Below, piece by piece: positions 60,513 to 63,708 of a stretch of DNA of 64,000 nucleotides (the first letter of the stretch is position 1; each line of letters opens with the position of its first letter). The stretch is from Hydrogenivirga caldilitoris. Lineage in GTDB: Bacteria; Aquificota; Aquificia; Aquificales; Aquificaceae. Under the pieces are notes generated by a model that worked only from the letters and a program-made list of their open reading frames with translations, made no database searches and was not told the origin of the DNA. The DNA lies in NCBI RefSeq assembly GCF_003664005.1, contig NZ_RCCJ01000001.1:1612001-1676000 (forward strand), read 5' to 3'. The translations under genes and the position numbers were made by a program.

Positions 60513-60869
60513 ATGAAGTGGAAAAGAGAGCTCAAGGAACTTCTTAACATACCCGAGGAGGCAGAAATAATAACAAGACCTTACTATAGAGATATCCCAA
60601 AGAGAAGTGGGAAAAAATACAAAGCCCTTACGGTCCAGTACGTACACAAAGGTAGAAAGAAGTATAAACACATAAGCAAGGAGAAGGAGGTACTTATAAA
60701 CCAGGTTTTAAACAATGAGGACGCTATCCTTGAGTATGTATCCTGCAAGATTAGGGAGTTAAAAAATTTCTTAGATAGCATACCTGACGAGAAAACTAAG
60801 AAGAACTTGATGCCCCTGTATAGGGAGATAGACCGACTGCTCACAAAAATATCTGTAGGTATCCTTTGA
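60513..60869 (+). CDS. Hypothetical basic protein, 118 residues
   Basis: Not recognised. It is lysine/tyrosine-rich in the first 55 residues (RPYYRDIPKRSGKKYKALTV, HKGRKKYKHISKEKE) and helical after that. The first part has a loose resemblance to small DUF6788-like proteins (an aromatic strand plus RKKY..ISKE), which is not enough for a call. The basic stretch could bind nucleic acid. It starts 2 nt after the hotdog gene and ends at the edge of the origin-like region. Confidence 0.55.
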   Translation: MKWKRELKELLNIPEEAEIITRPYYRDIPKRSGKKYKALTVQYVHKGRKKYKHISKEKEVLINQVLNNEDAILEYVSCKIRELKNFLDSIPDEKTKKNLMPLYREIDRLLTKISVGIL

Positions 60870-60963
60870 CATACACTTCCCTACTTATCCTTTCCCTTAA
60901 GTATGTATCTAAGTTAAGTTAAATATTAATAGGGAGACCAACTTGAATATGATTATTTAGATA

Positions 60964-61209
60964 TATCAATAACTTATGTAACAACTTTCCACATTATGGC
61001 TTGAATATGCTGGAATATAAACAACTTGAGTGTGATTAATATGCACAGCTTTATGAATAACTTACCATCTTTCCACATTCTGGCTAAATTTTCTACATAT
61101 ACCAATAACTTATTTACTTTATATATGCGTACAGTTATCAATAACTTATGAATTTATCCACATTTATCCACACACTGTATTGTTTATTCTGATTTATCAA
61201 TAACTTATG
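60964..61209 (+). repeat. Five direct repeats of TATCAATAACTTATG
   Basis: Exact at 60964-60978, 61136-61150 and 61195-61209; variants at 61052-61066 (TATGAATAACTTACC) and 61100-61114 (TACCAATAACTTATT). Two copies are followed by CTTTCCACATT and TGGCT, making a larger composite unit (60964-61001 and 61052-61085). Confidence 0.85.
61154..61172 (+). promoter_or_regulatory. Two tandem perfect DnaA boxes
   Basis: TTATCCACA at 61154-61162 and again at 61164-61172, starts 10 bp apart, so on the same helix face. Confidence 0.75.
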
Positions 61210-61292
61210 TGTGTAAAATATGTATAGAGTTTTCAAGTACTTACAATCTTTCCACATTTCGGGGGGGTATTTTTGAGGCTTTTCTTAAAAAA

Positions 61293-61356
61293 TGTGGATA
61301 TATTGTGGATAAAATGTGGAAACTTTGTGGATAAATTGTGGAAAACTTGTGGAAGA
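61293..61356 (-). promoter_or_regulatory. Array of six DnaA-box-like sites, 11-bp period
   Basis: On the plus strand: TGTGGATAT 61293, TGTGGATAA 61304, TGTGGAAAC 61315, TGTGGATAA 61326, TGTGGAAAA 61337, TGTGGAAGA 61348. Two are perfect complements of TTATCCACA. The spacing is exactly 11 each time, suited to a cooperative DnaA filament. The array ends 5 bp before a TAAAAT -10 of the next gene. Confidence 0.75.
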
Positions 61357-61372
61357 ATTTTAAAATTTAATT

Positions 61373-62725
61373 ATGTCTGTGAAGGTTCTTATAGTTGATG
61401 ACGAGGAGGGTATAAGGGACTCTCTATCGGAGATACTGAAGGAGGAAGGGTACAGGGTTAGTTCAGCCTCAACTTTATCTGAAGCTAAGCAAAGGATAAC
61501 TGAGGAGTTCTTTCATGTGGTGGTGCTTGATGTCTGGATGCCGGATGGGGATGGTATTGATTTTATAGAGGTTTTGAAAGAGCTGTCTCCTGATACGGTT
61601 GTTGTTGTTATAACTGGGCATGGCAACGTTGAAATGGCCGTGAGAGCTATAAGGAATGGAGCTTATGACTTTATAGAGAAACCTTTCTCTATGGACAGGT
61701 TCCTTATAACGGTTAAACACGCTTCCTCAGAAGCTTTAAGTAGACGGGTCAGAGAATCGGAGGAGCAAATAGAGTTAATAGGGAACTCAAAGAGGATCAG
61801 GGAAATTAAGGAGATGATTCCAAAGATAGCCAAAAGTAAGGCTCCTGTTCTAATACTTGGAGAAAGCGGCACGGGTAAAGAACTCGTGGCAAGACTTATC
61901 CACAGATACTCTGGAAGAGCTGGGCAGTTTGTTGACATAAACTGTGCATCTATTCCGAACGACCTCATAGAGTCTGAGCTTTTCGGTTATGAGAAAGGAG
62001 CCTTCACGGGGGCAGTTAGTAGAAAGAAGGGAAAGTTTGAACTTGCTGACGGTGGCACTCTATTCCTTGATGAGATAGGAGATATGGAACTCCGGGCACA
62101 GGCAAAGTTATTGAGGGTTATAGAGACAGGAAGTTTCACCAGGCTTGGAAGTACTCAGAAAATAGATATTGATGTGAGGATAGTATCCGCATCCAATAAA
62201 GACATACTTTCTGAAGTACATGAGGGGCAATTCAGGGAAGACCTTTATTACAGAATTGCCGTTTTTACTATAGAGCTGCCTCCATTAAGGGAAAGGGGTG
62301 AAGATATAATACTCCTCGCGGAATACTTCCTAAACAAATTTGCCTCAGAATATAAAAAGGAGTGTAAGGTTTTTTCCGACGAAGCTAAGGAAGTCTTGTT
62401 GAAACACAGGTGGAAGGGCAATGTAAGGGAGTTACGTAACCTGATTGAGAGGATAGTTATACTGTGCGATAAGGAGGTTATAAAACCTGAACATATAGGT
62501 GGTGTGTTTACAAAGAGCTCAAAGGATTACAGTTACATATTCAAACTTGATAGCTTTAGAGAAGCTCGGAAGGAGTTTGAGAAGACGTATATAGAGGAGA
62601 AATTGAAAGAATATAACTATGACATGAAAGAGGTAGCCTCTAATATAGGTATTGATTTATCAAACTTATACCGTAAAGTTAAAGCTTACGGCATAAAGCT
62701 CAAGAACCTGCAAGGTTCACTATAA
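61373..62725 (+). CDS. NtrC-family sigma-54 response regulator
   Basis: 450 residues. The receiver domain ([18 protein letters not shown], phospho-Asp in [12 protein letters not shown] about residue 53, KPF lysine) is followed by an AAA+ domain (Walker [15 protein letters not shown] loop as [10 protein letters not shown], Walker B LFLDEIGD) and a Fis-like HTH ([20 protein letters not shown]). It activates sigma-54 promoters. The style is that of NtrX and of the NtrC4 of Aquifex. No partner kinase gene is adjacent. TAAAAT lies 6 nt before the ATG, directly after the DnaA-box array. Confidence 0.93.
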
Positions 62726-63435: not shown

Positions 63436-63708
63436 TTACTTTATGCTGTCTCTGAGGTCTTTGGCAGGTTTAAAAGCTACAACCTTCCTGGCAGGTATCT
63501 GGATAACCTGACCAGTCCTGGGGTTCCTGCCCTTCCTGGCAGCCCTCTTCTTAACGGTGAATATACCCAGCCCAGGAATGGCGATCCTCTCGCCCTTCTT
63601 CAGGGCTTTGGATATAGCTCCGACGGCTGCCTTGAGAGCAGCATCCGCCTCTTTCTTGGTGATGCCCGCCTGCTTGGCGACCTCTGCAACAAGCTCTGCC
63701 TTTGTCAT
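63436..63708 (-). CDS. hup: DNA-binding protein HU
   Basis: 90 residues. The dimer helix region (MTKAELVAEVAKQAGITKKE), GERIAIPGLGIFTVKKRAAR and the DNA-clasping arm GRNPRTGQVIQIPARKVVAF are diagnostic; IHF is less likely. It is an abundant nucleoid protein. GGGAGGG precedes the ATG. Confidence 0.96.
   Translation of the reverse strand: MTKAELVAEVAKQAGITKKEADAALKAAVGAISKALKKGERIAIPGLGIFTVKKRAARKGRNPRTGQVIQIPARKVVAFKPAKDLRDSIK

Follow-up and report, generated by a model that had tools for sequence, protein, structure and literature searches.

The window, i.e., the whole analysed stretch of 64,000 nucleotides (G000:C1:1612001-1676000, on a contig of 1,753,429 bases, with G000 denoting the genome to which it belongs), harbors an origin-like region at 60910-61356, in which seven IHF-like sites on the same strand alternate with five DnaA boxes. 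This stretch of sites and boxes sits between an AT-rich block and an array of six further DnaA boxes with a period of 11 bp, and the distances from one site to the next amount to 52, 36, 48, 36, 59, and 36 bp. In window positions, the features of the region and its borders are:

60513-60869, plus strand: small gene of 118 residues without a Pfam match, left border of the origin
60910-60932, plus strand: AT-rich block ending in TTAATAG, bordering the site array on its left, putative unwinding element or DnaA-trio-like stretch
60964-60978, plus strand: IHF-like site 1, TATCAATAACTTATG, exact
60985-60993, plus strand: DnaA box CTTTCCACA
61016-61030, plus strand: IHF-like site 2, TATAAACAACTTGAG, degenerate, profile score 11.6
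61052-61066, plus strand: IHF-like site 3, TATGAATAACTTACC, three mismatches
61069-61077, plus strand: DnaA box CTTTCCACA
61100-61114, plus strand: IHF-like site 4, TACCAATAACTTATT, two mismatches
61136-61150, plus strand: IHF-like site 5, TATCAATAACTTATG, exact
61154-61162, plus strand: DnaA box TTATCCACA
61164-61172, plus strand: DnaA box TTATCCACA
61195-61209, plus strand: IHF-like site 6, TATCAATAACTTATG, exact
61231-61245, plus strand: IHF-like site 7, TTTCAAGTACTTACA, degenerate, profile score 11.4
61248-61256, plus strand: DnaA box CTTTCCACA
61293-61356, minus strand: six DnaA boxes (TGTGGAW on the plus strand) repeating every 11 bp exactly, in the opposite orientation to the boxes among the IHF-like sites
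61373-62725, plus strand: NtrC-type sigma-54 activator gene, right border of the origin
63439-63708, minus strand: HU gene, Ala/Pro at two IhfB specificity positions

The coding end for the C-terminus of the 60513-60869 protein was recognisable by eye beside the origin in the relatives G012, G004, G016, G005, G010, and G002. Many of the interspersed DnaA boxes in relatives are followed by a TGYGYT-like word (CACATTGYGYT), the places concerned being 60995-61003 and 61079-61087 in the window, which is possibly a weak reversed DnaA box.

A preliminary description of this DNA had reported a 15-mer occurring five times in 250 bp. Exact copies were found at 60964, 61136, and 61195 and at no other place in the whole genome; the number of five is reached only if up to three mismatches are allowed, including then the near copies at 61100 (two mismatches) and 61052 (three mismatches). 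At this tolerance, the window displayed nine matches against a mean of 2.36 in shuffled sequences, none of 100 shuffles reaching nine. A profile built on relatives uncovered two further degenerate copies at 61016 and 61231, giving a total of seven, all on the plus strand. The 11-mer CTTTCCACATT, present in exact copies at 60985, 61069, and 61248, had been regarded as an element apart from the DnaA boxes, but it includes TTTCCACA, the opposite-strand reading of the TGTGGAAA boxes, and so holds a DnaA box itself. Its reported spacing of 6-7 nt from the 15-mer is correct for the copy at 60964 (6 nt), not for that at 61052 (2 nt), and the TGGCT said to follow it is present at 60985 and 61069 and is not kept in relatives.

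With regard to the identity of the repeat, TATCAATAACTTA (TATCAA-TAAC-TTA) matches the IHF consensus WATCAANNNNTTR, as given in the passages on IHF of PMC10380432 and PMC8421141, at every specified position. IHF introduces a sharp bend into DNA. Three sites in the window are exact for this consensus and the remaining four are degenerate. Judged by its sequence, the 15-mer looks like the core of a predicted IHF-type site, a motif known in kind and not an unfamiliar one as first thought, and the suggestion that a second protein has its site at this origin was borne out in the form of a predicted IHF-like site. An unknown motif had been considered as a candidate as well and was rejected in view of the match to the IHF consensus, the encoded IHF-like proteins, and the copies in CRISPR leaders.

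The profile comprises 61 sites from 11 origins of the window's genus, seven of them from this genome, and was derived with the DnaA boxes masked; the origin of G002, found later, lies outside these 61 sites. Its columns revealed A5, A6, T11, and T12 in all or nearly all cases (A5 100%, A6 97%, T11 and T12 100%), followed by R13 (89%) and C4 (79%). To the left of the core, positions -12 to -10 are 85-100% A/T in the same 61 sites, with a weaker AG at -5 and -4. An IHF site is described in the relevant part of PMC8421141 as 35 bp long, with the consensus on its right side and an A-tract on its left. Besides the IHF positions, C10 and A8-A9 are conserved in the profile, and with its C at position 10 and A at 8-9 the motif is stricter than that of E. 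coli. Genome-wide, the general consensus WATCAANNNNTTR is weakly enriched (55 matches versus 39 for the reversed pattern), so the extended form seems to be the selected one. In the remaining 63.5 kb of the window, the profile threshold was passed at 17 places. Shuffled copies of the origin (200) showed a mean of 0.33 sites and a maximum of 2, versus seven in the real origin, a comparison with some circularity, as these seven were among the sites from which the profile was made; the mismatch count (9 versus 2.36) is the independent test. When the profile, made without E. coli data, was applied to E. coli oriC, GATCAACAACCTGGA, located 19 bp right of DnaA box R1, ranked first of 1574 positions, its score being 1.1 compared with more than 8 for the sites counted in this family. 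According to the section of PMC10797057 dealing with oriC, R1 and R5M flank the IHF site of E. coli, and we read GATCAACAACCTGGA as this site.

The additional conserved positions, namely C10, A8-A9, and the left-arm AG at -5 and -4, are absent from the E. coli consensus and could indicate that an unknown initiator or regulator, specific to origins of this lineage, binds the 15-mer and that the resemblance to an IHF site is due to chance. We regard this as improbable, however, since by our own arithmetic a nine-position match at some offset and strand of a 15-mer has a chance of about 1 in 10,000, and since such a protein would leave unexplained the reuse of the motif in CRISPR leaders, the IHF-sized tiling, and the encoded IHF-like proteins, all of which are described below.

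The preliminary description expected the repeat at the origins of relatives and named its absence from the equivalent region as a finding that would speak against it; the repeat was found there. Its steps of 52, 36, 48, 36, 59, and 36 bp are identical in G000, G012, G016, and G005, although these spacings are not independent of each other because the four genomes belong to one genus and share ancestry. G004 displayed steps of 62, 36, 48, 36, 59, and 36 bp, where an extra DnaA box is inserted and the additional 10 bp correspond to about one helical turn, and G006 steps of 51, 36, 47, 36, 58, and 36 bp. G010 and G002 follow the same scheme if one site in each went unrecognised, and one or more 36-bp steps remain in G011 and G008, which are truncated by contig ends, as they do in 10 of 10 origins of this layout. 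Among six genomes that could be compared without gaps, pairwise identity was 95% in the DnaA boxes, 73% in the site cores, 59% in the left arms, and 42% in the remaining bases, with slid controls over all columns of these genomes averaging 30% and reaching 39% at most.

An occupancy of 33 bp per site, as implied by the E. coli initiation-stage consensus in the corresponding part of PMC10380432, was used to analyse how the sites are packed. The count covers 14 origins, with G011 and G008 (contig ends), G002, and G041 left out. Of the 115 gaps between neighbours in these origins, 1 is an overlap exceeding 2 bp, and gap sizes of -1, 0, 3, and 7 prevail; the larger gaps in G010 and G044 (35 or 42 bp) have the size of one unrecognised site plus the usual gaps. 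In genus g4, which was outside the training of the profile, the two sites of each pair lie 50 bp apart with one of them inverted, and still the footprints abut. The tiling fits, as indirect evidence, an occupancy of about 35 bp with the core on the right for the predicted IHF sites. Two members of the window's genus, G007 and G013, differ from this layout: their origins have no tandem site array and are not beside the NtrC-type gene, revealing instead two opposed 11-bp DnaA arrays around one central TATCAATAACTT site. A second, weaker TATCAATAACTT-type site is located on the other strand of G007, at the edge of a DnaA array.

Bacterial activators often have repeated sites upstream of the genes they control. 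With the repeats lying directly upstream of the NtrC-type activator gene, they might be operators through which the activator controls its own gene, unrelated to replication. This is highly improbable in our view: the motif is not an inverted repeat, it occurs also in CRISPR leaders, and it stays with the DnaA boxes where the activator gene is elsewhere, the array of G019 (C1:167277) being 68 kb away from the best match to the activator (C1:99021), and array and activator of G007 and G013 being on different contigs. As a candidate binding site, the NtrC-type activator site was accordingly rejected, the motif going with DnaA boxes rather than with the activator gene.

Concerning the function of the region, it contains the unique intergenic cluster of DnaA boxes that is expected of a bacterial oriC. 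The phased DnaA triple (TGTGGA with 11-bp spacing) occurs nowhere else in G000, and it occupies one locus per genome in all of the family genomes having it (16 of 64, from 3 of 11 genera); in the other 48 of 64 genomes, or 8 of 11 genera, no phased array was found. The whole genome carries 14 close TCCACA pairs, six of them in this region and the rest single. In 11 of 14 origins of this layout, the least stable 40-mer is left of the site array; in G000, G005, and G010 it is not, and in G000 it falls among the sites themselves rather than in the putative unwinding block. The left block of G019, G044, G046, and G079 reads AATAATAATAG, which, at the level of sequence, resembles DnaA-trios as described in the pertinent section of PMC10797057. 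GC skew, taken from 20 sampled stretches plus the window, showed too much noise to speak for or against an origin. Taken as a whole, the region probably represents the chromosomal replication origin.

The clustering of the repeat is not limited to the origin, for the 13-base core of the 15-mer is also found in CRISPR leaders, which argues for IHF and not against a function. Passages of PMC8421141 name roles of IHF at CRISPR-Cas loci and at oriC together. Out of 12 matches to WATCAANAACTTR in G000, three are in the origin and two in leaders, those of the following arrays with near-identical leaders:

G000:C1:874131-877145: CRISPR array L005
G000:C1:887146-890160: CRISPR array L006, with cas1 and cas2 beside it

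Both leaders contain TATCAATAACTTACG, identical over 15 bases, at a distance of 31 bases from the last repeat on its outer side; G000:386976 (L169), which may be the remnant of a leader, was left out of the counts. Among the 14 motif matches examined in G019, 11 are at the same place in CRISPR leaders, with a run of A's left of the core (the total is 15, one match on the second contig, C2:29831, being outside the 14). Two arrays of this genome, L158 and L161, have a different CRISPR repeat, yet share the leader and the IHF-like site with the other arrays there. Outside the origin and the CRISPR leaders, TATCAATAACTTA is also present at G000:C1:124589 (L167) and 179739 (L004), the latter copy having an SMC/Rad50-like reading frame on one side and a short reading frame on the other. 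Within the array L005, a block of repeats and spacers of 300 bases is duplicated exactly (L005:362-661 and 829-1128).

The genome encodes three proteins of the HU/IHF (DNABII) family with matches over the cut-off of Pfam PF00216. One is the HU protein, whose gene is about 2 kb right of the array; the others are:

G000:483598-483897: gene for an IhfA-like protein
G000:152665-152946: gene for an IhfB-like protein

Comparison with NCBIfam models ranked an alpha model first for the IhfA-like and a beta model first for the IhfB-like protein. The equivalog cut-offs were reached by none of the three (92.0 of 111 for the IhfA-like and 80.4 of 115 for the IhfB-like protein), and we therefore name the proteins IHF-like rather than ihfA and ihfB. 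HU scored best on a beta model too, with 88.4 on the IhfB model. In a small tree, the IhfB-like clade joins E. coli IhfB with a support of 81, and the IhfA-like clade stays apart from E. coli IhfA, the support at the node concerned being 43. Relatives of both the IhfA-like and the IhfB-like protein at about 46% identity or more are present in g1, g3, g4, and g8, including the three genera with phased arrays, and every genome of the family has some member of the wider HU/IHF family.

Residues Glu44 and Arg46 of IhfB read the TTR part of the site and have a role in specificity. At the columns of these E. coli residues, 9 of 9 aligned IhfB-like proteins carry Glu and Arg, HU proteins of this order carry Ala and Pro (8 of 8), and IhfA-like proteins carry Gln or Lys together with Ser, E. 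coli IhfA having Lys and Ser. The Ala and Pro at the IhfB specificity positions mark the protein at 63439-63708 as HU-like. This HU, encoded 2 kb away, or another bender of the same fold with acquired specificity, might bind the sites instead, which would leave architecture and mechanism unchanged. The HU gene (63439-63708) lies beside the origin, its product scores about the same on IHF models as the IHF-like proteins, and HU can replace IHF in the opening of the E. coli origin according to the part of PMC10797057 concerned with this protein. Nevertheless, we hold this to be unlikely, as HU lacks the Glu and Arg that all nine aligned IhfB-like proteins keep at the Glu44 and Arg46 positions, and HU is described as sequence-unspecific in the same part of PMC10797057, in contrast to the sharp conservation of these sites.

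An IhfA-like/IhfB-like pair remains our preferred candidate. We consider it likely that the locus is an Aquificaceae chromosomal origin in which the 15-mer core is bound, at seven sites, by a bending heterodimer of these two proteins. Computation provided the motif, its match to the IHF consensus, the conserved spacing, the tiling, the candidate proteins, and the reuse in CRISPR leaders; what we infer is activity as an origin, binding and bending by IHF, and the sequence of assembly steps. The IHF-type heterodimer would bind seven sites of one orientation, most of them paired at a distance of 36 bp, and its occupancies together with the DnaA boxes would tile about 300 bp end to end. Successive sharp bends could fold these ~300 bp in such a way that DnaA on the interspersed boxes meets DnaA on the phased array, and the folded DnaA might be laid against the AT-rich, DnaA-trio-like left block, the presumed unwinding element. 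Such an assembly would extend to several bends the loop-back arrangement that one IHF site supports at E. coli oriC. A more far-reaching form of this model, which we propose only tentatively and rate as somewhat short of probable, is that seven IHF dimers make up a continuous scaffold wrapping nearly all DNA between the unwinding element and the phased array into a compact particle with exposed DnaA boxes; other solutions of this folding problem would then be seen in the inverted pairs of g4 and in G007 and G013 with their one central site.

In the consulted parts of the open-licence literature on Aquificales origins and IHF, including PMC1242344 and PMC10797057, this architecture is not reported; it may still be published. 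If the model is true, the layout can be read as alternating IHF and DnaA units, and spacing rules for IHF-assisted opening become directly testable. Aquificaceae would then have an IHF-dependent origin together with IHF-marked CRISPR leaders, and the natural variants, i.e., direct pairs, inverted pairs, and one central site, allow testing which geometry matters. The DnaA of Aquifex aeolicus serves as a structural model, as noted in the section of PMC10797057 on DnaA.

Compared with known systems, the region is similar in its order to E. coli oriC (DUE, R1, IBS1, R5M, DnaA array), where IHF has its place between an AT-rich unwinding element and DnaA boxes, comparable to the predicted sites here between the candidate unwinding block and DnaA boxes, and where the relevant passages of PMC10380432 and PMC10797057 propose that bending by IHF carries DnaA to the DUE. 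For E. coli oriC, the respective passage of PMC10380432 describes a primary and a secondary IHF site, compared to which seven tiled IHF-type sites in one origin are unusual; unlike in E. coli, DnaA boxes are here interleaved with the sites, and the DnaA array of 11-bp period stands apart from them. DnaA boxes are combined with an IHF site in datA and DARS2 of E. coli as well, and for datA the spacing between the two is said to matter in the portion of PMC10380432 on this locus, but these are regulatory loci away from the origin, modulating the nucleotide state of DnaA, and they have no tiled array. The CRISPR leaders of this family share the motif, with the A-tract on its left in G019, but show one site per leader and no DnaA boxes. 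With respect to the basal unwinding system (DnaA-trio), the left edge in G046 consists of TAATAATAG-type triplets, a GC-rich spacer, and a TGTGGA box, whereas the block of the window is degenerate (TTAATAG) and a candidate by sequence.
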